From Isoetes taiwanensis (lineage: Eukaryota; Streptophyta; Lycopodiopsida; Isoetales; Isoetaceae): a DNA stretch of 64,000 nt. Below the pieces are notes generated by a model. It was given only the letters and a program-made list of their open reading frames with translations. It made no database searches and had not been told where the DNA came from. Numbering within the stretch: position 1 is the stretch's first letter; each line of letters opens with the position of its first letter. The stretch covers positions 8,772,330-8,836,329 of the forward strand of contig JAJEKV010000025.1 in the NCBI GenBank assembly GCA_021234155.1, in the 5' to 3' direction. A program made the position numbers and the translations under genes. Below, in pieces: positions 31,590-53,884 of the stretch.

Positions 31590-32447
31590 TGTGGCGTTTC
31601 AAGACAAAGATACGGTCCTAAGACGATATCATCGTTTGCCGCCACGCCGCATTACCTCCATCTCGATTGGCGGTAATGTAGGCGTGTAGCCAAGCAGGTA
31701 GCACCCTAGGGGGGCAACTTGCAAGGTGTGTACATTTTATTAATGTGCACATTTACCCATGTGCACATTTATCTATGTACACATTTTCCCATGTGGACAC
31801 TTTATGCCACCTAGTTAATAAGGCAAGTGGGCCATACCCAATTATCCCACATGCTTAAAGGGATAATGGGAAACCCTAGCCCTAACCCTTGTCTATTTAG
31901 GTAAAGGAAATCCTAACTTGCTATTTTCATCCATAGCATTCTAGGTCTCTGTTTTGCTTGCTCCAGGAGCCAAAACCACCTCCCAAACTCTGTCTGAGCG
32001 ATCTAGCTCATTAGTTTTCCTTTCTAGCTTCATCTTCTAGCAGTTCAGCAGGATGGTCGAGTTCAGAGCAGGAGGAGCGAGCCAAGGATCAGGTATCTTG
32101 TCAATTTAATTAAATTGACAAGATAATTGCTATTATAATAGCCTAAACCGCCTCCCAGTCATTGAATAAGTAGGTTTAGCCTATTAAATTGCCCATAGCA
32201 GCCATCTAGATCCCTAGATATCGAGCTTTAACTAAAGAACCTAACTCTGTGATTTATATTAGATCTTGTTCTTTCGTTCTTCTGTGATGTGTATGATGAT
32301 GTATCTCTGTGAACTCACTGTATTGGTAAGGGGGGTAGAGACCCTAAGGCCTGGTAGTTGATGTTCCTAGCTAGCCTCTTTAGCACACTGAAAATTTGGC
32401 CTGTGTACAAGAACCACGTGCACCGTATATGAGTAGGGGACGTCACA
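31590..32447 (+). repeat. Element B 5' LTR (internally shorter)
   Basis: The first 90 bp match 44,949-45,043. From GTGTAGCCAAGCAGGTAGCA (31,683) to GAACCAC (32,417) the sequence matches 53,885-54,586, and the end GTGCACCGTATATGAG...GTCACA matches 55,346-55,375. A 759-bp block present in the 3' LTR is absent here. Confidence 0.85.
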
Positions 32448-35122
32448 GTCAGGGAATAAATTACTAATCGCATATTTCTTATTAGCCAGAATGACTTTAG
32501 CTAAACTTGCTCGATATTAATCCCAAAACTTTCTGTGGTTTAGCTAAACTCTACATATTTTTCCTTTCATACTTTCTAGCGTTTAGCTAAACTAACCCAA
32601 ATATCATCCCAAAAATTTCTATGATGTGGCCAACAGAAAACATTAAGCCAAATTACGATACTTTTTTTTAATTGTTTCCACTTAATTTAGTCATTTTCTT
32701 TGTGAAAACAATCTAAAATAATGTTAACTACCAAGGCCTAGGACTCAAATTAAAACGTAATGCTAGAAACTAAACTATTAATCATATATTTCATATGAAC
32801 TAGAATGATGTTAGCTAAATATGGCCTATTCATTTTTTACTATCTTTATCGGTTTTATTCCAGGTTTTATTCAGAGCCATTGATCTGTGGGATATCCCTG
32901 GTATTGTGCAAGATCAATGGCCATCAAGATTTTGACCCAAAAATAAAAAACCACTTCCTATGGTGTCGATCGAACACATGGTTCAAGCACAAGAAAAAAG
33001 CAAAATAAAGAAGCCATATAGTGTGCTAATTTCGTATAGTCAGCCCTCCACTGCAGCAACAAAGCAGGCAGGAAGCAAGCAGGACTGCCCCAATGAAACA
33101 CGTTGGAAACAATCCTCTTCTAGTCCTGGGCAGGAGTCCGGAATGAATTCTCCGCCAGTGCCCTGTGCCAAAGAAACCCAACACAAATAAAAAACCCTGT
33201 ATAAAGAAATAAAACCACATTATTGCAGCGTGTGCAATAATCCACGCTCTTTACGCTGCGCATAATTCTAGCAATTTACAAGATCAAATCGAATAAGGAA
33301 GCAGAGGAAGAAGCTTTGATTCTAAATCCTGTCGGGAGCAAAGCTACCGCAATTTTCCTACAAGCGGCTAAAACAATTCCTTTGGCGATTCAAAACAAAA
33401 GCGGGAGAGGGAGGATTTTAAAGCGTGTATAGAGCAAAAAAATTCTGAACAACGGTCGGCCGGGCTGTGAAGATCTTTGGATGGATGCCAAAGAAATAAA
33501 ACCCCTGTATAAACCCAAAGAAACAGAGAGGGATGCAACATTTCAATGCATTGGGGCTCGGATCTAGAGTGCAGACCGCCCATTCCGCCCGGTGAATCCG
33601 GGCGCTTCAAAGCTTGGCATTATGTACAAAGGCCGGCTCTGAAGCTATGGCGGCATTTTGAAGAATTTGCAAATGCCTTGTTCATTTGCATCGCCGGCGA
33701 AGCCCCCCGCCTCCGTCCATGCCCGTGACGACATCTTTCCACCGATTTTTGCGAAACGGCCTTGGCTGCCGCGTTCTTCCTACAAACCATCCCTTGTTCC
33801 CCACCGCCGATTCTTGCAACAATGGAACCACAGATCAACTCCGTCCACATAATACATAGATGAAGCCACGGATCCCTCATTTGGGATCTTTGGCACCTCG
33901 CCCAAAAGAAGCGGAGGATTTTGTTGCTTACCTCCTTCCTCCCCGCCAAATTGGGGACGAGTACAACCAGGCCCGGACCGAGCCATCTGCGGTAGAGCCC
34001 GTGGTGCGCGTCGCCACAATGCCTCTCCTCCATTTTGCCCTTGCCAAAAAAAGAAGGGAGCATGCCTTCTTATCCACACCCTAAAAAAAGGGCGCCAATT
34101 TTTTCTTCCCCACCAGCCTTTGCAAAAACCTCCATGAAAAAAGGAATTGCGAAGCACCCAAAATAGCAAGAAACACTCAAGCTCTTCTCACATGGCAAAT
34201 TATACCGTTTCTTATACAATACTGTACCAAAATCATAGTCCCCACCATTGCCAGAATACCCTCCCCAACCCCAAAACGAAAATAGCATACTATATGATGT
34301 TAGCTAAACTAGCCCGAAATTCATTTTAAAAGTTTCTATGGTTTAGCTAAACAATATCAAATTTCATCCTCTTACTTTCTAGCATTTGGCTAAAGGGCTC
34401 CAGGGTTGGTGCAGTCCCGAAAAAAGTTAAGCTAAAACTATTATTTTTTTCCCAATTTTTTCCGTTTACTTTAGCCAATTTTTTTTGAAAATGTGCTAAA
34501 AAATCGCCAAATAGCTAAGTTTGTAAGTGTATTGTCAGGCCTTGAAGAGGCAGAACCTAAAAAGAAGAGGCAAATGAACATATGAAGACAAACTAACCCC
34601 AAAAGCACCGGAAGTTAACATGATAGACTGGGTTCAGAATGTAAGCAGATATCCTTCTTCCTTGTTGTTCAAATACCAGGGAAAAAAAGAGACAAAAAGT
34701 GATTATTTGCCTGGAATAGCATATAAACGGAGGAAAAGAGCAAGTCATCTTCATGCAAGTAATAAAATACACTTATAGAATAAAGAAAAAACTTGAGAAC
34801 AACAAAGACTCATAGTTCGTATCTATGGTCCTAATCCTCACCTGTCAAGTTGATTAAACAGAAGGAAAATAGGGCAGTACTCATTTCGAAAATGCCCTTA
34901 AATTATTCCATGGTCACAGTGGTATCCGAGCAATGTTCTTGGTGACCAAGAGCAAAGCACTGGCCATGCTCCCACTAGTACTAACTTAGTAGGATTCTCA
35001 AACCTCAAAAAAGTGGGAAAATTTTTTCTCATTTTTGTAGTATATGCTAAGCTAGTAACAGTTAGTAGAATTGAAAACCAAGTAAACTAAAAAGTTCAGC
35101 TAAAATTTGACTAAAAGTGGAA
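32448..35122. other. Element B leader with GCTAAACT-rich repeats
   Basis: Three diverged copies of a phrase with CATATTTC...AGAATGATGTTAGCTAAAC occur at about 32,461, 32,771 and 34,266. Between the second and third copies, 32.84-34.26 kb looks like inserted sequence with a GC-richer centre. A 147-codon minus-strand frame at 33,620-34,063 is open but resembles nothing I know. No primer-binding site is recognised at the left edge. Confidence 0.45.
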
Positions 35123-35193
35123 ATGTCTCACACTATGCGCCAGAGCACCAACCTAAAATTTAGGTCGAGCCCTGGGCGCACAATGTGAGACAT
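35123..35193. promoter_or_regulatory. GTCTCACA hairpin H1, upstream of the H3-like ORF
   Basis: A 71-bp imperfect palindrome. The arms are ATGTCTCACACTATGCGCC and GGCGCACAATGTGAGACAT, and the centre ACCTAAAATTTAGGT is itself palindromic. Three related copies follow at 35,335, 37,032 and 37,225. Role unknown; position suggests a protein-binding or transcript-folding element. Confidence 0.7.
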
Positions 35194-35334
35194 TGGCCAT
35201 AATAACCTTAAAACTTGATGAATTTTAATAAGGTAAGATGCTAAATCGAATTTTAAGGTAGGAATTACCTAGATTTATATATTAGACCCCTAGGAATATG
35301 CCTGGAAATCACATAATTTAGTCTAAAATGCACA

Positions 35335-35403
35335 ATGTCTCACACTATGCGCCAGAGGCTCGATCTAATTATTAGCTCGAGCCCCCAACGCACAATGTGA
35401 GAC
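35335..35403. promoter_or_regulatory. GTCTCACA hairpin H2, upstream of the H3-like ORF
   Basis: Same arms as H1, with a different palindromic centre (GATCTAATTATTAGCTCGAG). It lies 212 bp after H1 and about 100 bp before the TATA box at 35,506. Confidence 0.7.
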
Positions 35404-35505
35404 AAATGGCTTAGAAAAGTCTGAAATAAGTATATGTTTTAAGTCAATAGGTGCCTCGGCACATTAAAAAGAGCAACTTAAATTTTGACCTAAAATTGCC
35501 CAAGC

Positions 35506-35513
35506 TATAAATA
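35506..35513 (+). promoter_or_regulatory. TATA box before the H3-like ORF
   Basis: CTATAAATAGACC is a textbook plant TATA box, 111 bp before the likely ATG at 35,617. A matching CTATAAATAGGCC sits in the same place before ORF2. Confidence 0.65.
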
Positions 35514-35616
35514 GACCTAGACCCCCCCTCATTTGTACGTTTCCTCTCTAGAAAATTGCTCCCACTTTTTGAGGCGATTTTTGGGCGCCCGACCTCCGAT
35601 CGGCGAACCGTAAGAC

Positions 35617-36891
35617 ATGGGCGAACCAAATGATCGCCGGGTTCCTCGAGGAGATTCAGGAGATGCTTCGGGAGCGTCTTCGTGCGAGAGATGACCAACC
35701 TTCGTCGAGCGAGGGAACAGTCTCAGATGAGCACCAAGGGGAAGGATCCCAGCAGGGAGCACAAAACCGTGAGGTAGACCAGCCAGGTAGACCAAGAGAA
35801 CGCAGACTGAACGCCACGTAAGTGCTCGAGGAAATAGATGGGGATGACGCATTTAAATGCGTAGAGTAATTGGAGCAGATAGAGAAGGAGAAGCAAGATA
35901 AGGCCGAGCGTGGATGGGAGGAAAAGGCGGAGCAAGAGCGGAGGCCAAAGCACACGAAGAGCGTAGGAGGGAGCCATCCCCGAGCCGACCTCGGAGGAAG
36001 AACTCGGCACTGATTCGGAAGCATGAGGCGAAGGAACGGCGCCGAGAGAAGAAAAAGGCGGAGAAGAAGAGGAAGAGGGAGGAGAAGGAGGCCAAGGAGG
36101 CCGAGGAAAAGAAAAAGAAGAAGGACAAGTACGTGGAGGAGCCTAAGAGAAAGACAAAGAAGACGCCCAACATCAAGGTAGTCATCACGGAATGGCCAGT
36201 AGACCAGCCCGTCTCCTCCGACGACTCGGATGACGAAGACTTCAACCCCAATCTTGAAGGTGTGAGTTCTTCCAAGCCCCCAGGTGATGAGCAGGGAGCA
36301 CAGGACCAGGAGAAGCCAGAGCAGGTGCAGGCACCCCCGCCATATCCGACATGGGAGAAGGATAAGGACAACAAGAAGGCACCTCGGCCTGCCAGGGAGT
36401 CGTACGTGATAGACCCCATCAGGGTCTACCAGAAGAAGCTTAAGGCGCACAAGGATTTTATGAAGAAGTGGGAGGCTTATAACTCCTACTACCAAGCGAA
36501 CAAGGTTACTTGGGTCGAAGGTGGACGGCCGTCGAAGAAGCAGACCCTAAAGCCGCCACCAGAGAAGCCCAAACCTCCAAAGAAGTCGCCCAAAAGAAAA
36601 GGCAACTCGAACTTGAATCGAGCAATCAGGGAGATCCAGCAATTCCAGAGGAGTTTCGGCTTCCTTATTCCCCGAGCACCCTTCGCCAGGCTGGTAAAGG
36701 AAGTTGTGCAAGAATATAGCACCGAAATGAGAGTAACAGGCGAGATGCTGTTAGCTTTACAAGAAGCAGCAGAGTAGAAGCTGGTGCAGCATTTTGAAGA
36801 CTCCACGGCATGCACAGTACACGCAAAAAGGGTAACTCTAATGAGGAAAGATATGCACTTGGCTAGTCATATTAATGGAGAGCCTTACTAA
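35617..36891 (+). pseudogene. Histone H3-like protein with long charged N-terminal extension
   Basis: The last part, 36,619-36,891, is a histone H3 fold. AIREIQQFQ and LIPRAPFARLVKEV match the alpha-N and alpha-1 helices, ALQEAAE alpha-2, and FED..., HAKRVTLMRKDMHLA, then GE loop 2 and alpha-3. The spacing equals H3 exactly, including loop 1. LIP-x-APF-x-RLVKEV and RVTLM-x-KD are closer to plant CENH3 than to canonical H3, but CENH3's longer loop 1 and its Trp are absent. The H3 tail is replaced by about 300 residues: a helical start (FLEEIQEMLRERLRARDD), a Lys/Glu coiled coil, an acidic SDDSDDEDF patch and a Pro/Lys-rich linker. As read, there are stops at 35,819, near 35,867 and at 36,775 (inside the fold), frame changes near 35,620 and 35,940, and no intact frame. 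It lies inside element B on the same strand as gag-pol. Confidence 0.8.
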
Positions 36892-37031
36892 TTTTGTAAA
36901 TCATAAATTTTGTGAATACAAAGTGTTTTCGAGTAAATTATAAGTGTATAAATGTACTTAATTAAGTTGAGTTAGCAAGTAATGGCTTTTGTTTTAGTCA
37001 AATTGGGCATAATTAGACCGAGTAGTGAGGA

Positions 37032-37088
37032 ATGTCTCACACTGTGCGCCAGAGCACCAACCTAAGCCCTGGGCGCACAATGTGAGAC
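37032..37088. promoter_or_regulatory. GTCTCACA hairpin H3, upstream of ORF2
   Basis: A shorter 57-bp copy with arms ATGTCTCACACTGTGCGCC and GGGCGCACAATGTGAGAC. The palindromic centre is reduced to ACCTAAG. The arms are conserved although the flanking DNA has diverged from that around H1. Confidence 0.7.
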
Positions 37089-37224
37089 CTTCACACCAAA
37101 AGTGGACCAAAACACCTCCAAATCGACCAAGTAAGGGGTCAATTCTTGCCTAACTCAATGAGACTAGTATGTTTTGACCATTAGTTTACTCAGATTGGAC
37201 AAGTATTGACCAAATTGGGCCAAT

Positions 37225-37292
37225 TGTCTCACACTATGCACCAGAGGCCTAACCTAAATTTTAGGTCGAGCCCCAGGCGCACAATGTGAGAC
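37225..37292. promoter_or_regulatory. GTCTCACA hairpin H4, upstream of ORF2
   Basis: A 68-bp copy with arms TGTCTCACACTATGCACC and AGGCGCACAATGTGAGAC and centre ACCTAAATTTTAGGT. It lies 193 bp after H3, which repeats the paired layout of H1 and H2. Confidence 0.7.
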
Positions 37293-37495
37293 CTTCCAGC
37301 ATTTTCTCTTCCATCCTACACCCAATTGACCTTTAGTTTGTTGCAATAGGTCCTCTAGACAGTCCTATTCATGCTCAAACCCTCAAATTAGCCTTCCAGT
37401 CCCCATTTGGACCTCAAAATAGGTCAGGATTGGCCAACCCCAGGAAGTTCCCAAGTCATCCAAAAATTAGAGTTTTTCCCTTGTCTATAAATAGG

Positions 37496-37605: not shown

Positions 37606-38940
37606 ATGGCAACTGCTGATTTTAGGCGATGGTACAGCGCCAGTGCCCATGCAGCCGAGACTGATGTCAATGCAATTTTTCAAGTTTTTCGAAAACAGAT
37701 AGATGTCCAAGCCACGTTGCAAGCAACCCCAGCTTACATGGAAGTCATGACCGAATTCCAAGCTAAGGTAGGACCGTCCTTAGTACAACTCCCCCCTTGC
37801 ACAGGATACTTTGTCCCTAGGCAGTCCCTCCAAGCAGCCTTAGGTGATGTCCCCAACATTGCGAAATATCTGACCAATAAAGCTGCTAGGTTGCCAGACT
37901 ACATGGTCGTGATAGCTAATAGAAACAAGTATTTTTCCTACACCGCTGCTCTAGCCATCTTTCTTTCCCACCGAGCCCAGAACCCCATGGGGGAAACCTC
38001 TATCCCTCCCATGGATGTAGATCCCTTAGCTTCTTGTGAGATGATCGGCTCTTACTCGGTACCAAAGCGGAACAAGAAGGAAGAGCGGATGATGAACCGT
38101 CGACTCGATGGCGAAGACTACGCCGAGCTCGACCCGAAGAAGCGCCGGTTAGCGTAAGCGGTGATGCCAATTTTTGAACAAGGCCGATGGGACCCTCGGG
38201 GATCGCTCCCCCGCTTGGGCTAGGTATCACAAGCCTAGCCCCCATTATCATTGACGGCCAGGAGTACTTGCTCCTTAGTGACATCGAACCTCGAATCACG
38301 AGAGCGGGGGGACCGACTTCGCCCGAGTTGTTGTATCTCTAGCGGCAGCGGCCGAATCTGGATGACTTCATCGGCCGGGAGGCATCCGACTTCCGATCCA
38401 GTCGGAAGAAAACACACTTATCTGAAGTCGACTTGAGATATTGGCATGTCTGGCGATGTCGCCAAATGATGGAAGCTTCGGGACTGCCGTCGAAGAGGAG
38501 TTTTATGCCATTCAAGAGCGGATGGGGATCCGTGGCAAGACCAATTTAACATTTTGATGCCGAGTTCTTCGACACCAGCCCCCACAGGTGTTCAGAGAAG
38601 AGGCGAGATCGACCTGCGGCGAATTACATCGACAGTCAGGGACTATGGAGACCGTCGATGAGTATGCGGAAAGACATAGAGCCGGTGCCCGAGGAGACGA
38701 CGAGTCAACAGCAGCGGGCAGGGACAGGTCGCTGAGGTACTATCTCCCTCTGCTGAAGGACGGGAGAATAGCGGTAATTCACCATAAATTCAGCCCAAAG
38801 GCGAAGAAGTGTTCATGCTCATCGCGACTCTCGGGCTTTGGGGACATGCTTTCGGCTGGCTCCAAAAGCGACTATGACATCTTAGTCAAAGAGAACGATG
38901 GCACTTGACATCTTCGACCGTCATACCCTACCGGACGACG
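37606..38940 (+). pseudogene. Element B accessory ORF2, unknown family
   Basis: The first 184 codons (ATG at 37,606 to a stop at 38,155-38,157) are open. They read as a well-folded protein: MATADFRRWYSAS, then alternating helices, a FVPRQSLQAALGDVPN segment, and a Lys/Arg-rich end that includes PKKRRLA, a possible nuclear localisation signal. Protein-like sequence continues to about 38,940 in other frames (for example LAPIIIDGQEYLLLSDIEPR), so the original product was probably over 400 residues. No zinc knuckle, protease, polymerase or membrane signature is present, and I do not recognise the family. It shares its upstream layout of paired hairpins and TATA box with the H3-like ORF, so the two may be co-regulated. 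Confidence 0.5.
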
Positions 38941-39285
38941 GGGAAGACTAGCGTTGACCTGCGGCCTACCCGTCCTAAGCGAGGGTAGAAGACTTGGTGG
39001 CGACCTTGCGGGCGGGTCATCAACGAACATCCTCAGGAACTTGGGACGCTCCGTAGGAACGGCCCAAGTTAAGAAGTTCCTCCAGGATAACCCATCCTAC
39101 CGGCGATCTCAAGATTAGTTAGACTCTTGACCCCGGGGGCATTGTATTTAAGATATCATATATATGAATACATTTTCTTTTGCACTTTAAATGTTTTGTT
39201 GATGTATTTTATTCCACAACTACACCAACAAACACATACAATGCAATAGAACAAATAAAGCTAACTGTAAAGCCACGATCTACTT
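38941..39285. other. Spacer between ORF2 and gag
   Basis: AT-rich sequence at 39,140-39,260, after a CG-rich stretch, may hold a polyadenylation signal for ORF2. A possible splice acceptor, TTGTGTATGCAG, lies just before the gag coding sequence at about 39,294. Confidence 0.35.
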
Positions 39286-40502
39286 GTGTATGCAGCTAGA
39301 GCTCCAGGCACAGCTGAACAAGAACGGCGAGCCCGTAGGGAAGAACAGACTCCGCCCAGGCCACACCCGGCAAGGAACCTGTATGAAGCATTTGGCCCAA
39401 TGACTCCCGAGGAGGAAATGTCTCAGATGAGAACGGACCTCCAGCAGATAAAGGCCTTCTTGGCAGCGCAAGCAGGAGGGAGCTCAGATAACAATGTCCA
39501 GTTGCCGGAAGCACCACCTCAGAAGACGAGGAAGGACAAGAAGAGGAGCAAAAGAAGGAGGTCCCCCGGCACGGAATCCTCCGACACAAGCTCGGATTCC
39601 GATTCCGACTCCAAAGAAGAGGAAGAGCAGGTGCAGGACCAAAGAGACGGCAGACACAGGGACACGAGGACCTCGGACTATCAGAAGAAGGTAGACTCAG
39701 CATTGGGAAATGTATGGAAGGCTAGGAAATGTATGGTAGACAGCAGGTCAGGCATGGAAGCAGAGGCTTGGCTTGATGAGATGAGTGAGTATGGTAACGC
39801 TTATAGCATGAAGGACAAGGACAAAGCGTGGTGCAACACCAACCTGAAGGGCAGCGTGAGGCATTTGGTGGAAGGGCTATGCAAGGCCCATGGCTTGAAC
39901 AGATGATTCTGAGTTCAAGAAGTTTGCTAAGGCTTTCAAGTGCCATTATGTACCCGAGAACATAAGTGTTACATGATGCGATAGTTTCACCGATTGCGGC
40001 AGGGCAACATGTCTGTGCTAAAGTACATAGAGGAGTTCATGAAGCTTAGATTGTATGTGCCCAAGTTGAGCAAAAGGCACGCAGTGGAAGGATACATCGA
40101 AGGGTTGAATGATGAGATAAGGAAGTTGGTAAGAGCAATCAACCCCAAGACAGTGTCAGAAGCAGAATCCAAGGCGGTGAGCTTGCAAGGAACGGGCCCT
40201 CGGTGACATTGGGCAGCCGGCATTAGCGATTATCAGGATAAGGGCAAGGCAACAGGAAGCTATAGCCCTAGAGCAGCTAGCCCGGGTCCAGCAAAGGCCC
40301 CATATAGTGGCAACTATGGGAAGCAACAGGAGAAGAAGCAGGTGTCCTTCAAAGACAAGCAGGAGGGATCAAACTACTCCAAAGCAGTGCAGTCCTTTTT
40401 GCAAGCAATGCCCAAGGAGAAGAGGCAGGCATGTATAGAGAAGTAGCTTTGCTTCAGGTGCTTCCAGCCAGGCCACAGGATGGCGAACTGCCCCTTTGTC
40501 AT
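39286..40502 (+). pseudogene. Element B gag
   Basis: The first frame (206 codons to 39,906) has a basic, Pro-rich start, a coiled section (EEEMSQMRTDLQQIKAFL), an Arg/Lys-rich block, a Ser/Asp-rich acidic run, and then the retrotransposon gag domain. That domain continues after a frameshift through RQGNMSVLKYIEEFMKLR near 40,003-40,056 to 40,206. The nucleocapsid zinc knuckle CFRCFQPGHRMANC, a perfect C-x2-C-x4-H-x4-C, is at about 40,450-40,491, just after an in-frame TAG (40,444-40,446) where a Gln codon would be expected. The gag domain layout is normal for a plant chromovirus. Confidence 0.75.
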
Positions 40503-41000
40503 GAGCGCAGCGCTAGCGGAGTTGGGTGGATGGGACACTCCGTCTGACGACGACGGCGAGGCAGCACGCGACTATATTCAGGGTGAGTGTCACATTTTTG
40601 CTGCCATAGATACAGAACAAGCAGAGAATCAGTATAAGGTAATTTCCACAGTAGGGAAAGCCAAGGCCAAGTCTTTCATAGTCCTGATAGACTCGGGAAG
40701 TAGCCACAACTTTGCGTCCCCAAGAATGGTTGAGATGTTGAAGTTGAAACCGTTGAAGTCAAAGTCGAGGCTCGTGGTGTTAGCAAGTGGAGCAATGAAG
40801 ACACTGGGGGGAAAGAGGATAAACTTGACATTGATTTGCGGAAATCAACATCGGATGGGGCGTAGTAATGGGCATAGGCAAGTATGACTTGATCATAGGA
40901 ATGGAGTATCTTGGACCAGGCGGGGGCCATCATTGATGGAAAGCGGAAGGTGACCCTCCTGGCGCCAAGCGGCAAGATCATCGAGATCCGCAGGTAAAAA
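40503..41000 (+). pseudogene. Element B aspartic protease
   Basis: An acidic linker leads to VLIDSGSSHNF, with the catalytic D-S-G at 40,690-40,698. The flap region (LVVLASGAM) and the end block KYDLIIGMEYL near 40,880-40,912 follow after one frame change. D-S-G-S-S-H-N-F is the standard active-site form in plant chromoviruses. Confidence 0.75.
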
Positions 41001-41039: not shown

Positions 41040-41935
41040 CATTTCAAGTGCATAAAGAGCGGCGGGTAGCATATATCTTCAAGCTTGAGACCGAAGAGCC
41101 GAAGTCGGGAAGGAAAGCAAGGAAGACAAGGTGCTCCGACAAGTTGCCCAAGCAGATAGCTAAGTTGATCACGGGTTCCACGATCTCTTCCCGGATGAGA
41201 TTGAGCGGCTTCCTCCTTCTGAAGTCGAGTGTGAGATAGCTTTTCGAATCGAGGGAACTAAACCCGGCGAGCAAGGCTCCATACGAGAATGGCGACCACG
41301 AGGGAGGCGAGACTAAAAGAAGCGATTGCGGGGAGTTGCTTTCGACCTAGGCTTCATTAGATCTAAGCGTCTCCCCATTTAGGGCACCCATTCTTTTTGT
41401 GAAGAAGAAGGATGGCAGCTTGAGGATGTGCATAGATTACAGGCAGTTTAACAAGCACACCATCAAGAATAAGTATCGCTTCGGATCGGATGACTTGATG
41501 GATCAGCTCCAAGGGGCAAAAGTCTTCTCCAAAATTGATCTAAGGTCAGGCTATCATCAAATCAGAATGAAGGAAGAAGACGTCCACAAAACGGCTTTCA
41601 GGGACCGGTATGGGCATTACGAGTTCATGGTAATGCCATTTGGTTTATCAAATGCCCCAGCGACATTGGAGTTCTTGGATACTTTTGTGATAGTATTCTT
41701 GACGATATTACGGTGTATAGCGAGATCCACGGAAGAACACATTACAACACCTAAGAAAAGTGCTCGAGAAGTTGAGGAGGCGGCGATTTATGCGCCAAGT
41801 TGTGAAGTGCCATTTCTGTGAACGGAGGGTGGAATACCCTCTTTGGATCATGTGATCTCGACATAAGGAATTTTTGCGGATCACCGCCAAGATTGAAGCG
41901 GTGATTGATGGCGGCACCAAAAAAAAGAATGTCCA
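41040..41935 (+). pseudogene. Element B reverse transcriptase
   Basis: The open stretch 41,399-41,821 carries [54 protein letters not shown] and SNAPAT, the canonical fingers and palm of Ty3/gypsy RT. After PAT about ten residues of the usual sequence are missing (a roughly 30-bp deletion). The catalytic LDD is interrupted by one missing base before ACGATATT at about 41,700; with it the region would read [10 protein letters not shown]. Upstream, 41,048-41,260 holds the linker before RT with the recognisable FPDE...LPPSEVECEI block in a shifted frame. Confidence 0.85.
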
Positions 41936-42640
41936 TGAGGTCAGAAGCTTTCTTGGCCTAGCAGGGTACTACAGGAAGTTTGTGAAGAACTTTGTAAAGA
42001 TAGTGGCCCCGCTATGAGACTTGGACGAGGCGGAAAAAGTGAAAGATTGGGCAGATCATTGGCACAAAGAAAAGCGGGGGTTTGAATTGTTGAAGGAAGC
42101 TTTGACAACCACCCCATCTTGACCTGCCGGATCGAGGAGAAGGACAAGCTTGTGGCGACAGACGCAAGTAAGATAGCCACAGGTGCAGTGCTCATGCAGG
42201 AAGAGCGGGTAGTAGCTTACGACTCCAGGAAGATGAACGACGTCGAGACGCGCTACCCGACCCATGATCAAGAGTTGCTAGCCATTGTCAGGGCACTAAG
42301 GATTTGGAGGCATTATTTGCTGAGGAGGAAGTTTCAGTTAGATACTGATCACCAGAGCCTTCAATATCTTTTCACCCAACCACTCCTCAACCTAAGGCAA
42401 AGGAGGTGGATGGAATTCCTTGAGGAATATGACTTTGACATAATGTATAAGCCCGGCAAGCTTAATGTTGTTGCAGATGCCCTCTCCAGAAGACCATTTG
42501 GGATGAGAACGCATTGTAATGCTATATCAACTCTTTCGAGTGAGTTTGGTAAGAAAATTGAGGAGACATTGCCGTTGGATGGTGATTTCAAGGAGGTATG
42601 GGCAAGCCTCTCTAGGGAGGCTAGAGCAGGATAAGGAAGG
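41936..42640 (+). pseudogene. Element B RNase H
   Basis: RSFLGLAGYYRKFVKNF near 41,945-41,992 marks the connection domain. The RNase H core is open from 42,119: LVATDASKIATGAVLMQ, SRKMNDVETRYPTHDQELLA, RHYLLRRKFQLDTDHQSL and KLNVVADALSRRP, so all the usual acidic positions are present. One in-frame TGA (about 42,015) and a frameshift separate the connection from the core. Confidence 0.85.
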
Positions 42641-43440: not shown

Positions 43441-44054
43441 TCCCGTGTCAAAAGTAGAGGTTTCGCAGTAAATGTTGGCCGACATGCAGCAGCTGGTGGA
43501 AGAGGTTCGAGGATATCTTCTTGCAGCAAGGAGTCGGCAAAAGAGCATCGCCGACAAGCATCGAACAGTCAGAGAGTTCCAAGTTGGCAATGACGTGTGG
43601 CTCAAGATCAAAGTGAAGCAGGCGAAGCTCCGCATCGGAAATTGTAAGAAGCTTGCTCCAAGGTGGGCTAGACCCTTCAGAATAGTCAGGAGAGTAGGTA
43701 ATCAATCCTACAAGTTGGACCTACCAGCACACCTAAAGATTCATAAAGTCTTCCACGTGAGTTTGTTGAAGAAGCATACTCCAAATCCAGATGAAGTCTT
43801 AGACACTCTAACGTTGTTGGAAATGACAGAAGAGCAGCTGGAAATAGTTCCAGAATTGATTCTTGATAAAGCCTTCAAGAAAACAAGGAGATCAGAGTTT
43901 CTCCAATATTTGGTCAAGTAGAAACACTTGCCGGTGGAAGGCGACATGGGTACTTAAGAAGGATCTATTAAAGCAGTATCCACAGTTTATGAAGCAATGG
44001 GATGGCAAAGTCATCTCCGAAGAAATCGGCTCAGGCATGTCGATTTGTGCTTAG
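43441..44054 (+). pseudogene. Element B integrase C-terminus and chromodomain
   Basis: One open frame, 43,472-43,921, carries the GPY/F-type end of integrase (VWLKIK, LAPRWARPFRIV, YKLDLPAHLKIHKVFHVSLLKK). A chromodomain follows: PELILDKAF then a short linker and FLQYLVK, where an in-frame TAG at 43,919-43,921 takes the place of the conserved Trp. The rest, KHLPVEGDTWV...KQYPQF, continues in a shifted frame to 44,054. Chromodomains bind modified histone tails and direct integration of chromoviruses into heterochromatin. The stop removes the aromatic cage residue in this copy. Confidence 0.8.
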
Positions 44055-44948: not shown

Positions 44949-45043
44949 TGTGGCGTTCGGCCACGATTATCACGGTCCTAAGGCATTATCTTTCTTTGCC
45001 TAAATCAGCGTACCGCCATCTGATTGGCGATGTCGCCCGAAGC
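44949..45043 (+). repeat. Element B 3' LTR, left part
   Basis: It starts TGTGGCGTTC and matches the start of the 5' LTR (31,590-31,682) through ACGGTCCTAAG and CCATCTGATTGGCG. It is cut by the DNA transposon at 45,044; the rest of the LTR resumes at 53,885. Confidence 0.75.
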
Positions 45044-45068
45044 GGGTAAAAGCTGCGTTAGGGTGATA
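45044..45068 (+). repeat. DNA transposon left terminal inverted repeat
   Basis: GGGTAAAAGCTGCGTTAGGG followed by TGATA; pairs with the right end at 53,858-53,882 with few mismatches. Similarity fades after about 25 bp. Confidence 0.7.
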
Positions 45069-45449
45069 AAATATTGGGTCATTTTAATATATATACATTT
45101 TTAGAAATGCATAATAATTACCGTGAATTTTGGTTTTTTTTTCCGACCAAAAATAGGCAATGGAAAATTCCCTCCAATTCTTTCTTCCCCGTTCTTGTTT
45201 CTTTGTCCTTTGATCTCTCTGCTTTTACCTGCGATCCAGCACCTCGATCTCTTGCAAGCGACTAAAGCACGCTCTTCCGAAGTCGCTTGGTCATTCTCAA
45301 CAAATCAAAGGTACAATCGTCTTCTTCCCTAGTTTTCTTCTTTTACGCTTTTAATTTATTACTTTAGGTTTTGTTTACATGTGAAGCTCAGATTATTTGC
45401 ACCTTTAGGACAATTAAAAGATATTTGTTGTTGCATTGCGGTATAGACA

Positions 45450-48200
45450 ATGGCAAAGACACCAAAGAAAGTGCTGCCCTGCATCGGTCAGAAAATCTCC
45501 GGGGCTTCAAAGCGGGGACACATTTGAAGTCTGGAAGTCTGGCTGTAGCAAAGGAGAACCGAAATGAGGACGATTATTTTTACGCAAAGGGATCATGAAT
45601 ATGAAATTCAAGGAAAAATTTCTGAGTACAACTCTTTAGTAATGAGAAGTTTGGGGATCTAAGGAACCTAAGAATAACGGGTACAAGGATGGTGGTGAAG
45701 TTGGAAGACCGGGCAGAATTTTTCAAGTGAGTGCGAGTTTGCATTGGTAGGAAAGATGTCTGAGAATCACTATGTTCCTTTGTATTTTGCTCGAGCATTT
45801 GCCTTACACTTAAAAGGTGAATCAGTTGATTGGGATGATGTGAAAAAAACAGCCACAGCTAAAAGCAAGGTCAAAGAATCCGAGGTTTTGACTGAAGTTG
45901 TAACAGTTAAGTCGAGCAATGCCAAGGGCCACAAGTCCTATGATACTTTCTACAAAAAAGAAGATCTGGACAGTTTGAATGTATTTCTTGAGAGCGGATC
46001 CTCTTTGAAGGAAAGCATATGTAAGGAGATCACGAGAATTTCTGAGGAGGCGAGGCTGCGGCTATATGAGACTTTGAAGCATAGGGAAGGGGAAAGGGTA
46101 GTATATTCTAAGCTAGTCCATGAGGGCGAGACTAATTACTTGAATCGATGTGTCGAGTTGGGGGCATTTCAACGTGAGATGGATGAAAGTGGACAGTAGT
46201 GCTATGAAGTTTGAGCACATAAAATGGAAGGTGGAGGATGCAATTGCTTTGAGAAAAGAGCAAGAGGGGGCGGGATCTAGGCTGAGCTTAGCAAGGAAGT
46301 GGAAGCAAAAAGCATCGAGGTTGAAGGCGACTAGATTCTGAACTCAATTTAAGGTCTTCAAAAAAAAAAAAGCAATTGAGGAGGGGGACACAAAGATTTT
46401 TGGAGTTGAGGGGTTCTTAGATCCTCCTCGGTCCTTAGCTTGCAGCCTCCTCCTCTTTCTTTGGTTTGATTCTTGAGAAGCGACCAAATGCTGATTTTGA
46501 TCCTGCACAAATGGCGGCGGTGTTTTGGTTCCTCCCGGTGGTATTGGCATCTTGCGGACATCCTTACGCCTATTATGTATCTCCTATCTTGCTAGCACAA
46601 GGAACAAGCTACTTGGCCCGTACCAGTGCACATGGGATGTGAATCTACCTCGTGCATTGGGGCTGATTGGAAAAGGTAAGCATGCATAATCGATTTCTTT
46701 CATGTCTTTCTTTATTGGTTGGTGTAAGATTGGTAGATGGATATTAGTTAGAAGTTGTGCATTGGTTGTGCATTAATTGTTACGTAGTATATTAATCACA
46801 TTTGGGTTTTAAAATGTAGGTTGAAGTGAAGATTTGTAGGGTTGGATTGTTTTGCTTTTCTATTTTGGTGTAAACATCATGTTAGTACATGCATATTATT
46901 AATGTGCATGATGTCTGATGTTGCCCGGATATTATTGAGGAGTTACTTTTATGTGCTAAGAAAATAGGATAAGTAGGTAGCGCTTTGTGTGTACATTTGT
47001 ATAACATGTGGTCTTCTCTTTGGGGACATTTTGATACATCTTTGTACTCTATGATACATTTTAGTGCAATTACAATTTTCCAGTAAGCTTTTCTACACTT
47101 GGCTCCAAATACATATATCTAATATATCTAATACAGCTACATGGAATGCATTTATGAATTCTTTTTTCTAGGAAGCTTTCTACATTTGGATGTGGGTACA
47201 TAAAAGCGTACATGGATTACATAATCTGAGATACATGGGTACATTTGGAATTGAATTGTACATTGCTTTTACGGATTGTACATTTCTTTTGGTCATCTAG
47301 TTACTATTGGTAATGCTTTCATTCTTGCGGTGACATGGGTAGTATAAAAAGCCCGGAGAAAGGTATGTGATATGTGGTTATGGTCTCTTCATATGTATTT
47401 CAATTTCACCTCGTATCACGGATGCCGGCAAGAGCAGGTAGATCCTCCTGCAAAGACACTTGATTTTTCAAGTTGTGTAGATGATTATTATGGAGGGAAG
47501 CATGATAAGTCAACCCCGTCCACATCTAGGTCATCTCTGAACACATTGAACACATTTGTAGCAGAGCATGAGAGAGGAGGAAAAGGAACATCAAGTAAGT
47601 AATTAGTTTTAAATGAATTTGCTGGATTTTATTAGGAAGCAAATTGAGCTCATTTTTTTAATAACATATATAGTTGTCACAAGCAAAGCTACAATTGTAG
47701 CTTCATATGCACAACAAATTGAGCTCCTGAAGCAAAGGGCTGAATGTGGCAACACAGGTGTGTGTCCATATTAGTTTAATTTCTACATTTTCTTGATGTT
47801 TATCTTTGCTTTATTGACAATGAATTATCTTGTAATCTTTGGAACCGGGGGTGAGGAGAACAATGAAGCCGTCTCGACACTCTAAAGAAAAAAGATATTA
47901 TTGTAGAGGTCTTCGACACTCCAAAGAAAACAATTGTAGACAAGGTGCAGAAGGTACCAATTCTAAAGCCAATGCCACATCATCAGACCGAACTTGAAAT
48001 GTTGTTTTCAAATGGTAAGTCAAAAACTACTTATTGCATTTATTTATTGCATGTTCATACATTTTATTATTCGCAGAAACAAAGGAAACTAGTGGATCTA
48101 TGGCCTTAGTTGGAACTACAATCGAAAAGATTGAAGAATCATGTAAAGGCAGGAACATATACAAGCTGGTCTTGAAGAAATTTTAGTGGAGAATGTGGCT
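45450..48200 (+). pseudogene. DNA transposon plus-strand gene, 5' exons
   Basis: The reading starts near ATGGCAAAGACACCAAAGAA at 45,450. The largest open part, 45,744-46,199, encodes 151 residues with an alternating helical pattern (YFARAFALHLKGESVDWDDVKK, ISEEARLRLYETLKHREGE). Later exons near 47,425-47,595, 47,675-47,755, 47,855-48,013 and 48,077-48,185 have plausible GT/AG borders. No domain of known family is recognised in this half. It reads towards the protease exons below, so both are probably one gene. It may hold a decayed transposase N-terminus, but no zinc finger or DDE motif is visible. Confidence 0.4.
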
Positions 48201-48399
48201 CTGAGATATAAGCGGTGGTTGTGGTGAAGCAAGAGAAGGCGAGTCGAGGATAGAACGGAATCTGAGATAGTGGTGTGAGCGAGAAAGAGTCAAGAAAAAG
48301 AAAAGATACAAAGGTGTCGTGACCAGCTAAAGAGAACTAGAACCCGGACATCGGTTGAGCAAGCTATAAGTATAATTGGATTAGTAAATATATGTTTTA

Positions 48400-49380
48400 T
48401 GCTAGTTACCATTGATGCTTGGTTTTGCGGTGACATGGATAATCTTCGGACAATGGTTCCATTCTATTCGTTCCAAGGTGAACCTCGATTAAGGTCACGA
48501 AATATTGTGTGGAGACATTGTTTAAAGATAGGCACATGTCTAACGGACATTTAGACATATTTGGAAGGTATGTGGCAGACACATTTGACATCAAATGGCG
48601 AGATGTCTTCTTTTTTCTTCCTTGAGAAAACTTTTTGACTTATCGGGCAGCATTTAAAGATTAATACGGATGCTAATAGTATGGGACGGTCGGGCGGAGA
48701 TGCGGTTGAAAGGGCTACAAGGCATTGTTGTTAGTAAATGCCCATTATATTATGGTTCAGTTCAAGTTGAGGACCACGCCCATCATGTTTTGGTGATTTT
48801 TGTTTTAGAGTCTGCAAAAAAGTGCGGTACCACCTCAATGGCTTCTCCTGCAATTATTGTGTTGAACTCCATATTTGGTATAACGATTGGAATGACAAAC
48901 TCCTAAATATGTGAGCATTTTCTTTCAGTATATGTACTCGTGCTTGCTTAAATCTTAGTTGCATGTTCTCATTTGTGTGTGCAGGCTTCATAAGGATGTC
49001 ATCACATATCTAACCAACTCTAGCTCACGTAGAGTTGAATTATATGTGAAGAATGCAGTGAAGAAGGAAACTATTCGGAGGGTTCCACAACAACCGGATA
49101 ATGTAAGGCTGCGGTCTTTATGTGATGGCCTTTATGCAAGCTTTTGTGGATGCCCAAGTGAATTCTAAAAGCATGGTGAGTTGTTCTTATATTTCACATA
49201 AATCCTTTGCGATGTTTTATTATAGGGGATCTTAATTCTTGTGTTTGTTGCAGTTTCATCAACATGGTTCGATAAGGATTTTGCACTTGGCAGAAGAAAT
49301 GTATTAATAAAAGCCATGATTGAATATGGTTTGAGAAGAAGAGATGAGACAAAACAAGTTGTCCTTTAGGCGGGAAGAGT
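48400..49380 (+). pseudogene. C48 (Ulp1-like) cysteine protease exons
   Basis: C48 proteases cleave SUMO-type modifiers. Three exons can be placed. One ends near 48,905 and carries HHVLVIFVLES and IIVLNSIFG, where Asn stands in the place of the catalytic Asp. The second, 48,985-49,175, starts LHKDVITYL and has the conserved Gln in VPQQPDN; after a one-base frameshift it continues CGLYVMAFMQAF, with the nucleophile Cys in the usual D-C-G-L-Y context. The third, from 49,254, reads WFDKDFALGRRNVLIKAMIEY. Introns have GTGAGC...TGTGCAG and GTGAGT...TTGCAG borders. Given the lost Asp and the frameshift, this copy is probably inactive. Confidence 0.65.
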
Positions 49381-50299
49381 GGTAGTTAAACTCATTTCCA
49401 ACTTATGGAATTTAAAGCTAATTGACTATTGTACTTTGAAATTTATTTGAATAAGAAATTGTTTGCAGCGCTTTAATTTCTATCAAGGGTTACAAACTAG
49501 AATTAGTTTAGGCTTTACATCTTATCCTTAGGCTTGGTCGGTTAGATGTATGGCTAACCTAAGCGCCTGGATTACTTACGAGGGCTTATTATATTTGATC
49601 TCCAAGGCATTTTGGGTTACTATTGTAAATCAGCACCCGGTGACTATAATGGCACTCAAGTGCCAATCCAATTACACGAGGGAGTCTTCTTTTCTCGTCC
49701 ATTGTGAAATCATTGTTGTCTTGGTGTTCCAACCATTGGGATTTGGTACGTTTTGGTCGGATCTTGGATGTTCGACGACCATTGTAGACAAGTTGTATGA
49801 GCAAGGCATACCAAGATTTAAATTCATTTATGGTGGCAATAGATATTGGACCCTCTTCTTAGAGGTCAATGATGGAGACGGAACATATTTCTTTTCCCTT
49901 TGGATATTCCACTCCTCAAGTATCGAATCACGGAAATAGATGTGTTATGATTCTTGACCTTCCTTTCAAATGTATCTTCAATGAGGGTTGCTCTTCTGCA
50001 TACCGAGTATGGCATCGAAGGCTAGCGGGTGAAGACAAAGATTTGTGTTGGCTATTTGACTAGTTTGTTGGCTTGAAGAATGCAAATGACTTTACCACTT
50101 ATGTCCAAAGCATCATCAATTTGATACTTCGTGCATACAATGACCACGATGGTGAAATGCATAAAATCTCAATATGGTGAAGACATGTTCCATGCTATAT
50201 TTTACAAAACCGGGGTAGTTCACACAGTACAAACCACTGCAAATTCAATTCAATTCAAAAAGTAACACAATACAAAAGCCTTTGCAAATTCAAAGCCTT

Positions 50300-53200
50300 C
50301 ACCTAATCCAAGACATCCACCATTTTGGGAAGACTTCCTATATCTCACATACGACATCGGACAATGCAAAAGCTGCACTAGCACCTTTAACCACAATGAT
50401 TTATCTTCTTCATGGGAAATTTAGCTCAATATGAGACTCTCTTGGTACCAATACTTCTCTATCATCCAATAGCTTATATTTGTTATGGCAACTTGGCAAT
50501 TTACGATAATAATAAGGTGATATGGTATGTCACACTGCATGATGCTCATTCTTGTAATCATCAATGATCGTTTGATCCAATACATGCTTTTCTCTAGTGC
50601 AAGCAAGAACATAGTATGGCACATCTTCCTCATTACGAGGAAAAGAGCAAAAGAAGCAAAATTATCACCAAATTGTATCACATCATGTAACTCCTCTACC
50701 TCATTTGCAAACATTGCGTTTTCGATTCAATTACGTACCTTGACATGTGCATATGGGACTAGCTTCTTCAATGTCCACTTTCCACGGTGTTGAATAGACT
50801 CATATGCACGCCATTCAAAGTTTATGCGAGCCTTTGCAAAAACAAGATAGTGGTCTAACCATCGGTAAGGTTGGGTCCTACGGACTTATGGAAGATACCG
50901 GATTACCCGACTTTGGACACCGGGAAGGGGTTGCACATCAAATGGCTTTGACACATCAATCTCAGCCTCCTTCACTTCCCAATACACTCTGAACTTGAGA
51001 TTTCTTGTTTCTCAAAACAACCACAGGCATCATGAGCACCCTTTATTTCAATCCCATGCTCTCTTCTTTGCTCAGCGGCCCAAGAGTTGCTGGCCTTGGC
51101 GACCTCTCCATCATGTTCCCCCCTTTCCATGCCACGATCAGAAGAAATTCCATTGTACCACGAATGCCATCGCGACAATGGTACGCATATGAAGTAGAAT
51201 GATCTTACGGATTTGGGCCGGCGGCACAACCATCGACCACCGCGAGATGATCACGCATGTGAGATCCTCCATTCTCTTTCAACCCGAAGATGAAGTTGAA
51301 ATGCATCTTTGTACAAAATGTGTGTCATGACTTCTATCATCGAAACATATAAGTGAGCAGGTCTTACGCAACTTACCATTTACCTTGAAGAGAGTGATGT
51401 GTACCAAAATAGTGATAAAGTGCGCATTCCAATGTTGATTTGCACTTCTTTGAAGGGCTGCAATGTGTAATTTTACTGCAAAGTCTACTAGTGATATCCG
51501 GAATCATCTCTTAGACTCACGAATGCTTCTTCTAAATTCCTTGCTACGCCAATGAGTGCAAAGTTGTGATGCACAAACTTTTCATGTGATCAAACATGGC
51601 GAGATAGCATGAAAGGAGCATCTGTTTGCTTCTCCACCAATCTTAGTCTTCTAGAAGTGCCCTTCCTTGACTTCTCGTCCATATAACTTGATAAGCTTTG
51701 CCATTTAACATCATCTTCATTATTACGATCGGTCTCTTTTTGGACATAAGGGAATCTTTTGCTTACCACATTTTCACAATCCCCCTTATGCACGCCATTG
51801 TGCCACTCTTCCCTTTCCTCTTTTTGGCAAACCATTTCTCTTCAAAGAGTGCTAACATTACAAAGTGCAAGCTTTTTGCACGACAAACCCCATCATGTGT
51901 ACCAACGGCACATACATCACAATTGCAAAGCTGCAATTTATGTGAAACTTCAGCCTCATAGAGTTGAATGCTTTTCTGAAATTCTCTGCTTGTTCATGCT
52001 TGACACAACAACAAGTGTTTCTCTCCTTCAATTTCCTTATGCAACTTGGTTTGGTATTGAACATTTGAATACCAACATACATCTGGATTCTCCTCCACAA
52101 GTTTGCTCATCATTTCGACTCTGCACATTGCAAAAGAAAATAGGTAAGTTGGAAGGCGTGCATTGAATATACATATCCGATTACATAAGTAAAAATACTA
52201 TGTATACCGGTACATATCGGTTGTACATGTAAAAAGATTTGATTGAATCTATACATATTCAGTACATATGTACAATAGATTATGTATAGTATCAATTTAT
52301 AGCACATTTAATCCTACATTCTTACACTATGTACATATATATCACATAATATACATGAAATACTTCCAAGAGCAAGTAGATGACCCCATAAACCTCATTT
52401 ACATGTATAATACATTAAGTAAAACAGGACCGAAAATGCTACATCAAAGCAAGTAAACTAAGATTGGCAAAGGAGTTCACTTACGGCATATTTAATCTTA
52501 CATCCTTACACTATGTACATATATATCACATAATATACATGAAATACTTCCAAGAGCAAGTAGATGACCCCATAAACCTCATTTACATGTATAATCTGAT
52601 TAAGCAAAAGCAGAATAGAAAAGGCTACATCAAAGCAAGTAAACTAAGATTGGTAGAAGGAGTTCACATATGTGCATGAAAACAACAAAAAGCTGAAATG
52701 TAATAGTTTCTTTGACAAAAGCTTTAATACGAGGAATGTCAAGATCTTTGGATTGCCTCGCTTCTTTTTTCCTCACATCCACGTACTTTGGTGAAACCTT
52801 GGTGTTGTTAAGCGAGGTGGATGACTTTTTGCTTGGTTTCTTCATCCAAGCGATGGGATCTAGCCTTCCTACCTGCTAATGCCCAAATGTTTGAGCCGGC
52901 AATTGCCATTCTCTTTCTTACGCTGAAGCGACATATGAAAGATTCCGGGGATGGCATTTGAGCATCTTGCAAGCAATTCCCTTTGCTTCAAATCACCATT
53001 TTCCCCACAACCATTGATAAAGCCCGGGTGCTTGGCGACCAATTTATCACCACTATTAGAGCATTTTACCTCTTCCAATCCATCTTTAAGGTTTTCTAAA
53101 ATTGCATGCTTGACTACCGCTTTGCTTGTGAAGGCAACCCAAATCGAGGGTTCAAAAAGCTCCAATAGCATGTGATCTTGCAAGAATCTAGAAGCAAATA
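50300..53200 (-). pseudogene. DNA transposon minus-strand gene, Cys-rich protein
   Basis: Starting at the right end, a minus-strand frame from 53,183 gives about 104 residues (MQDHMLLELFEPSIWVAF...). Further exons follow near 52,630-52,870, 51,700-52,120 (with CNCDVCAVGTHDGVC, a Cys-rich block), and 50,940-51,230. The segment around 50,930-50,990 reads like EVKEAEID, and an equivalent VLWEVKVEDIDRN occurs on the minus strand at 60,780-60,820. The two elements therefore carry the same kind of opposing gene. I do not recognise the family with certainty. A tandem duplication sits in an intron. Frames are broken many times. Confidence 0.45.
52296..52670. repeat. Tandem duplication, unit about 185-190 bp
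   Basis: The block from GCACATTTAATCCTACATTC (52,301) to AAACTAAGATTGGCAAAGGA is repeated from 52,484 with a few changes. It lies between exons of the minus-strand gene. Confidence 0.85.
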
Positions 53201-53399
53201 AGTACCTTTGATTAGGAGCGGAGATTGACTTCTTTTCTCATAATAGTACTTGACATTTTGCTGCTTTGGTCCTTATTTTTTTTGGTAACATACCTTGAGG
53301 ATGTACTACCCTTTTCAATTTAAGCTATCATGCTCTGCCATCTTCTTTTCCCTTTCTCATCTCTCCCACTTCGAAATTCTTTGCATGCCACTGTTGTTT

Positions 53400-53600
53400 A
53401 CTCTTCACAATTTTGAATTCACGGATGCCATCGATGATCGCCACATTCAGTTTCAAAATCGCAGTTGCATGTTTTCACGATCACCACATTCAGTTTCAAA
53501 ATCACCCGATTGCATGTTTTCACGATTGCCACATTCGGTTTCAAAATCACCCGGATTGCATGTTTTCACGATCACGGGAAAAAATTCAAATTGTGTTCTA
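53400..53600. repeat. Short tandem repeat, unit about 46 bp
   Basis: CATTCAGTTTCAAAATC...TGCATGTTTTCACGAT recurs about three times near 53,443-53,575. The three plus-strand frames and one minus-strand frame here follow the repeat and are not genes. Confidence 0.7.
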
Positions 53601-53857
53601 CTTTCTTGGTTCGATCTGGGAATTTTTGTTGGAAGGAAATTTTTCTGGAGGGAATTTTCCTGGAGGAAATTGGAGGGAGGAATTTCCAATTTCCTCCAGG
53701 AGTTTCGCATCAACCGCCGGCCTCTACTCGTCATAATTACAAACAAACGGGAATTTTGCCCCTTTTGAAATATATAAGACAAAATTTATACATGAAATAA
53801 GTACATTTAAAATTCAGCAACCCGTTCAAAAGTTTACATGAATTGCCCCCTAATGTA

Positions 53858-53882
53858 TGACACCCTAACGTGCTTTTACCCC
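53858..53882 (-). repeat. DNA transposon right terminal inverted repeat
   Basis: CACCCTAACGTGCTTTTACC then CC; inverse of the left end. Element B's LTR resumes directly after it. Confidence 0.7.
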
Positions 53883-53884
53883 GA

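Follow-up and report, generated by a model that had tools for sequence, protein, structure and literature searches.

A predicted histone H3-like protein encoded inside chromodomain Ty3/gypsy LTR retrotransposons of Isoetes taiwanensis

Results

A decayed LTR retrotransposon with a histone-like first ORF

The 64-kb stretch of the Isoetes taiwanensis genome analysed here (the window) carries a decayed LTR retrotransposon whose parts all lie on the forward strand. The first part of the 5' LTR (31590..32440) begins TGTGGCG, lacks the inner part of the sister LTRs, and matches three of these at 79-86% over 31590-32416/32417 (blastn). Its text stops after GTAGGGGA at 32440 and picks up again at GGTCACA near 34907, on the far side of an insertion within the last bases of the LTR (32441..34906, approximate borders). 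The LTR end (34907..34918, ...TCACA) is followed by a primer binding site at 34920..34931 (TGGTATCCGAGC; TGGTATCAGAGC in sister copies), which we take to be of the tRNA-iMet type. Two hairpins (35113..35193, -33.7 kcal/mol; 35321..35404, -32.8 kcal/mol) and a TATA-box-like CTATAAATAG (35505..35514), a putative promoter element 112 bp 5' of the ORF start, precede ORF1 (35617..36891). This decayed frame encodes an H3-like protein consisting of a tail, a charged middle of about 300 amino acids and a histone fold, and closes with TAA; the decayed tail has its ATG at 35617, where sister copies read MARTKQTAR. The fold, from the end of alpha-N to the C-terminus, occupies 36616..36888 and is interrupted by a TAG at 36775-36777.

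Two further hairpins (37029..37094 and 37226..37296) and a second TATA-box-like CTATAAATAG (37485..37494), likewise a putative promoter element, lie between ORF1 and ORF2, the box 121 bp 5' of the latter. ORF2 (37606..38157) begins MATADFRRWYSA, shows weak likeness to the ORF2 of a second element family described below, and gave no match in a Pfam search. The gag-like piece (39271..39906) has no Pfam match of its own and is recognised by its likeness to a sister copy (L014), in which the matching ORF carries Retrotrans_gag. Pieces of a retroviral-type aspartyl protease (40447..40887, RVP_2), reverse transcriptase (41351..41821, RVT_1) and RNase H (42086..42634, RT_RNaseH) follow, and then the C-terminal part of an integrase with the start of the chromodomain region (43472..43921, SH3_Tf2-1). 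The chromodomain itself is cut off in the window copy; Chromo PF00385 is seen in the sister copy (L014:4295-4687). The 3' LTR begins after a purine tract, AAGGTGGGGAGAA, and consists of a first part (44949..45037), some 8.8 kb of later insertion or insertions (45038..53860, approximate borders), and a second part (53861..55375) that ends GACGTCACA and matches sister LTRs at 81-87% (blastn). No exact 5-bp target duplication is present at the window copy, which is flanked by GAAAT on the 5' side and AAATC on the 3' side.

A sequence-only reading of the window had placed the ORF inside a chromodomain Ty3/gypsy element, on its coding strand, and had judged the copy broken. The LTR and primer site 5' and the pol pieces 3' of ORF1 agree with the first statement; the damaged tail and N-terminal frame, the in-frame TAG at 36775-36777 and the interruption of both LTRs bear out the second. 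Three other features of the window were recorded. Two head-to-tail copies of a 1.03-kb unit, 97% alike, lie at 29557-31616, the second overlapping the first bases of the 5' LTR. Within the 3' LTR insertion, the best Pfam match of an open frame (45699-46199) is DUF5621 (E 0.11, below the cut-off). On the minus strand, 296 open codons run antisense to the charged part of ORF1 (35656-36546), probably as a by-product of composition.

The ORF1 fold is homologous to histone H3

With the TAG read as X, the translation of 36616-36888 matched histone H3 in the PDB (7ux9, chain E) with E 7.6e-24 over 87 residues and without a gap, in keeping with the exact H3 spacing that had been read from the sequence. 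The profile check that the same reading had called for gave PF00125 matches above the curated cut-off in both open pieces flanking the stop (35902-36774, 7.2e-11; 36778-36888, 4.9e-7). Because the PDB match is joined by these two separate Pfam matches, the fold represents H3 homology, and chance likeness or a frameshift artefact was ruled out. The corresponding ORFs of sister copies matched PF00125 at 1.1e-24 (L023) and 2.5e-41 (L039, of family B; the window copy belongs to family A). Two observations go beyond the sequence-only reading: ORF1 starts with an H3 tail, and a promoter-like module lies 5' of ORF2.

Aligned with host H3, the folds of both families show no gap in loop 1 and lack a Trp at that place; for the window copy, that reading had noted a loop of canonical length without the Trp of CENH3. 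In the fold alignment, all nine family A rows retain the residues that correspond to H3 R83 and H113, and the eight rows that extend to D123 all retain its counterpart; we take these to be H4-pairing and tetramer residues. The chaperone-site letters are SAVL in host H3, FAIL in family B and EMLL in family A, and family A has P at the counterpart of H3 R63.

The H3 ORF belongs to a repeated LTR element

The genome searched comprises 1,658,258,908 bases in 1110 contigs. A 115-residue piece of ORF1 gave 7682 first-look candidates, of which 150 were scored; all 150 match, at 68-100% identity. Ten of these family A copies, chosen mainly for long open frames, were fetched with 20 kb each. A match to the LTR of one of them, c1071, lies directly upstream of the H3 ORF in nine of the ten, and c1032 has an LTR only downstream of it. 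ORF2 comes next after the H3 ORF in 6/10, gag or pol lies downstream in 6/10 (c930, c1071, c1056, c1063, c1032 and c1041), and five copies have both the upstream LTR and downstream gag or pol. Copies c1071 and c1063 also have an LTR at the opposite end of the element. For c1078, c1026, c1033 and c1045, whose alignment to c1071 ends early, there was no gag or pol match within the stretch read. Alignments between copies span the 5' region through ORF1 with no border at the ORF; these borderless alignments and the LTR upstream in 9/10 copies rule out a nested insertion of H3 in one copy. The search for further copies in the same place, proposed with the first reading of the window, returned such copies.

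Copy c1071 (L013 and L014) is complete in structure though not in coding. Its LTRs, at 1760-3341 and 15554-17139 of the joined stretch, are 96.4% alike and have TG...CA ends. The element is flanked by the 5-bp target duplication CAATG; its primer site, TGGTATCAGAGCA, lies one base past the 5' LTR, and the purine tract AAGGTGGGGAGAA precedes the 3' LTR. The ORFs run in the order H3 ORF1, ORF2, ORF3, gag, protease, RT, integrase, chromodomain. The Pfam matches in L014 follow as RVP_2, RVT_1, RT_RNaseH and rve, with pol split over several frames, and Chromo PF00385 is matched at 1.2e-7; ORF1 has 418 amino acids, an altered C-terminus, and has lost its original ATG. On an assumed plant substitution rate of 1.3e-8 per site per year, the LTR divergence would correspond very roughly to 1-2 million years. 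The ORF2/ORF3 regions of c1071 (L013:6163-8229) and of a family B copy (L039:3521-4924), accessory proteins beside H3, have no convincing Pfam match. A unit of about 3 kb, 95% alike between repeats, recurs head to tail at positions 13036-20000 of L019/L020 (contig C1033, joined and oriented), and tRNA-iMet-like primer sites recur at intervals of about 3 kb; this is perhaps a tandem array of LTR elements.

Linkage was also examined from the side of pol. The 150 scored H3 places were compared with the 150 places that had been scored for the c1071 RT (of 28655 candidates). In at least six pairs RT follows H3 on the same strand at a distance of 2-15 kb; among the places scored, there was no pair with RT upstream of H3 and none within 15 kb with the two on opposite strands. 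Sister elements without the ORF, which would have spoken against the first reading, were sought among elements chosen with no regard to H3: five RT places were picked by their long pol frames alone, and for two of them (1608 and 1405 aa) 161 bases were read about 4.6 kb upstream. Both (L059 and L060) have the H3 fold at the predicted spot. Over 53 residues L059 is identical to host H3 at 30 and to a family A copy at 43, the latter being itself identical to host H3 at 26. Taken together, the copies support the view that an H3-like protein is encoded inside this LTR retrotransposon and belongs to it.

ORF1 of family A is a split H3

In intact family A copies ORF1 starts MARTKQTAR, continues with a Lys-, Glu- and Asp-rich stretch of about 300 residues, and ends in the fold; as judged from its predicted translation, it is an H3 whose tail and fold are separated by the charged stretch. 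Tails were collected from 22 copies, namely the ten fetched copies, L004, L005, L008, eight short stretches and the window copy, and were located by eye or by a pattern permitting 3-4 changes in 8 residues. Twenty were readable, the tail of the window copy being destroyed and one stretch (L058) beginning past the tail. K4 is present in 20/20 and ARTKQTAR is exact in 11/20. The K9 position holds V in 12, K in 6, L in one and P in one, in which the frame breaks next after the P; since K9 is kept in six tails its loss is not general. S10 is absent from all 20. Synonymous codons vary among these tails while the residues stay constant, and the ATG is missing from some copies. When the first 183 residues of a family A copy served as query, 152 matches came back without the tail letters; they are excluded from these counts.

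Upstream of ORF1, family A copies carry hairpins of the GTCTCACA...TGTGAGAC type and the CTATAAATAG box, and a second such set precedes ORF2. A pattern search of 11 sequences, the window and the ten copies, found both TATA boxes in five and a single one in six; all four hairpins with both halves were found in four (c930, c1056, c1033 and the window), the others being missed or decayed. This duplicated arrangement suggests separate promoters for ORF1 and ORF2. The N-terminal parts of ORF1 in families A and B matched no Pfam family at E 1; a single PDB match to that of family B (E 0.84) was taken as chance.

A second family carries a more canonical fold

A plant H3 query against the genome gave 9064 candidates, of which 150 were scored: 15 are host-like at 96-98% and 135 match at 71-86%. 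As these two groups stand apart, a host pseudogene was rejected as the explanation. Eight of the 135 were read and define family B. The ORF has 409-413 residues, starts MAITK and ends in the H3 fold; it is open in L039, L040, L041, L045 and L046 and broken in L042-L044. The fold of L039 is identical to host H3 at 76/87 residues. With the L039 ORF as query, all 102 places scored (of 12410 candidates) match at 77-100%, most of them over residues 1-409. As family B has no ARTKQTAR tail, K4 is not common to all families.

L039 has LTR-like sequence, 66% identical to the end of the family A LTR, a primer site of the tRNA-iMet type, and two GC-rich hairpins and an ORF2 ordered as in family A; the similarity between the ORF2s of the two families is weak (E 0.029, pairwise comparison). 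A nested element interrupts the 16 kb from L039 onward, and gag and pol accordingly went unmatched there. In two other family B copies an integrase end and chromodomain lie 6.5-9.5 kb downstream, the chromodomain stretch being 62-66% identical, and the sequence after it matches the L039 LTR at 91-94%. No single complete element was present among the family B copies read. Comparison of 56 non-host places of the H3 query with the scored family A-type RT places gave no pairs, as expected for a different family. Direct repeats of 284 bp, 99.6% alike (L039:4989-5272 and L047:5867-6150), flank about 8.6 kb in a family B copy and mark a young nested element with short LTR-like ends.

The element-borne H3 is constrained

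Among nine family A copies the median dN/dS was 0.066 in the fold (mean dS 0.97) and 0.19 before it, and among five family B copies all 84 differences in the fold, totalled across 10 pairs, were synonymous, with a pN/pS of 0.15 before it; as copies were picked partly by H3 similarity, over part or all of the fold, the fold values are lowered, most of all in family B, the bias being smaller for the regions before the fold and for the RT-picked open frames of L059 and L060. The reading frame is kept through the N-terminal part and the fold in both families. On this pattern of substitution the element-borne H3 has almost certainly been kept by selection.

Discussion

Host plants silence transposons via H3 marks. 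We propose that a chromodomain Ty3/gypsy lineage took up a histone H3 gene of its host and has retained it as ORF1. The protein would be made in the host cell from its own putative promoter module, pair with host H4 and enter nucleosomes. In family A it would replace H3 with a version that has the K4 end, lacks S10 and the K27/K36 stretch, and mostly lacks K9; element chromatin might in consequence resist silencing, or be marked for the chromodomain integrase of the element itself. That ORF1 encodes a nucleosomal H3 variant serving element chromatin has, in our estimation, an even chance of being correct. Entry into nucleosomes is suggested because the fold is constrained and the presumed H4-facing residues and the tail end are kept. 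Against it stands the insert of about 300 residues, which is large for a nucleosome, and assembly by the normal H3 chaperones is uncertain because family A has lost most chaperone-site letters and R63. Single viral H3s have been judged likely to enter host chromatin in a review of viral histones (PMC9145170). A wider reading, which we put a little below an even chance, is that an old lineage makes its own nucleosomal H3 variants and employs them, alongside its chromodomain integrase, to write and read its own chromatin state, so as to counter silencing or to mark itself, tail and fold having been parted by a new arm or domain and families A and B having been separately remodelled.

The most serious competitor, though an unlikely one, is a packaging factor, in which the fold and basic stretches would compact the cDNA or RNA of the element, within virus-like particles or the pre-integration complex, and the protein would stay out of host nucleosomes. 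ORF1 is encoded before gag, the middle of the family A protein is strongly charged and partly basic, and families A and B attach different N-terminal parts to the same fold, all of which would suit such a role. A generic packager, however, needs neither the counterparts of the H4-pairing and tetramer residues (in their presumed roles) that the fold keeps nor the tail end, read by chromatin proteins, that family A keeps.

Less probable again is a decoy, in which the ARTKQTAR end and the long arm titrate the H3-tail readers or modifiers of silencing and the fold acts as an anchor. The presence of K4 in every readable tail despite varied codons is what a decoy would predict, and a long insert would hold the tail far from the fold. 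Family B, in contrast, conserves the fold without such a tail (MAITK...), and the fold is more constrained than the rest of ORF1.

It is improbable, as we see it, that family A took its H3 from a host CENH3 and targets centromeric chromatin. Centromeric chromoviruses do target centromeres, and in a tree of 25 rows family A groups with two plant CENH3s (92/90), with family B beside host H3; this grouping is not starred, branches are long, and the two CENH3 rows are sequences entered by hand. A single A+B clade gave a p-AU of 0.043 and A+B+host 0.054, which rose to 0.069 and 0.067 when L059 and L060 were added as rows. Family A has the letters LIP.APF and TLM[KR]KD and a lengthened N-terminal region in common with these CENH3s. 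CENH3 has a longer loop 1 with a Trp, whereas family A has a loop of canonical length without it, a KQTAR tail as in H3, and a gene that is an uninterrupted ORF inside an element. The CENH3-like letters pointed out in the sequence-only reading are matched by the tree but not by the tail and loop 1, which are like those of canonical H3. A search for host CENH3 in this genome recognised none, and introns may hide it; it returned canonical H3 genes and H3-fold places at 63-69% to the query. The architecture and the ORF1 position that family A shares with the canonical-like family B suggest one capture of canonical H3, after which family A would have drifted to CENH3-like letters; the tree leans the other way.

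Very improbable, in view of the constraint described above, is passive capture, whereby H3 hitchhiked as other captured genes do and is useless to the element. Many single copies are broken, stops occurring in many of the 150 scored rows, and drift was suggested by the authors describing an H3-like gene in a fungal hAT transposon (PMC3538342). Low dN/dS over divergent copies in two families, and a frame kept from the N-terminal part to the fold, speak against it. The chance insertion of a host H3 gene or pseudogene, or of another element, into this one copy can be dismissed with near certainty: the window copy does have later insertions in both LTRs, but sister alignments cross the ORF without a border and the LTR lies directly upstream in 9/10 copies.

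Chromoviruses have LTRs, a tRNA-iMet-type primer site and the order gag, PR, RT, RNase H, integrase, chromodomain. The Isoetes element has this domain order, LTRs and primer site in common with them, and differs in adding ORF1 (H3) and ORF2 before gag and duplicated hairpin/TATA modules.

Among the precedents found, the nearest is the hAT DNA transposon of Pyrenophora tritici-repentis that carries an H3-like gene (Manning et al. 2013, PMC3538342). As described there, that gene also has insertions in the N-terminal tail, has multiplied in the genome, and fully matches neither H3 nor CENH3; the reference genome holds 26 very similar genes, for which the authors suggest possible drift. The fungal element is a DNA transposon with terminal inverted repeats, whereas c1071 has LTRs and pol, and here there are 150 scored family A places and a second family, with deep divergence and, by the substitution pattern, strong constraint. 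In plants, Ty3/gypsy elements of Phalaenopsis carry AlkB (Alvarado-Marchena et al. 2022, PMC9289625) and are alike in having a captured host-type domain as an extra ORF, though theirs is an RNA demethylase and that of Isoetes a histone. The screen in that report covered 121 angiosperm genomes, a set outside which lycophytes fall, and found 15 unusual domains in LTR elements; its section on these domains names no histone domain.

The single H3s of viruses (xenomavirus, Dishui Lake phycodnavirus and others; PMC9145170) have folds near host H3, as in family B, and are judged likely to join host nucleosomes; some have lengthened N-terminal tails. They belong to DNA viruses, and the account of them in that review describes no insert of some 300 residues between ARTKQTAR and the fold. 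Among virus contigs compared with the family B ORF, one (L061:379-1449) encodes a long multi-histone protein whose last part is H3-like, resembling the viral histones of that review, with a small histone-like ORF beside it (by eye); the fold of this protein is 37% identical, and it was rejected as a relative of the element.

A term search did not find the word histone in the main text of PMC8566536 (Isoetes taiwanensis) or PMC10541799 (I. sinensis), nor in a review of giant transposons (PMC6431247). By titles and the starts of abstracts, in a mostly open-access literature, no LTR element with a histone was recognised. The earlier statement that no described LTR retrotransposon with an H3-fold protein was known to the reader stands in so far as we found none; it needs qualifying in that, as reported in PMC3538342, a transposon of another class, the fungal hAT element, has an H3-like gene.

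If our reading is right, these elements would answer silencing with its substrate, H3 itself, and not with an enzyme. As natural variants whose tails are altered, the element H3s may help to test which residues matter, and they may serve as a marker of the coevolution of host and element chromatin. In genomes of this kind, element copies may make up most of a histone gene count.
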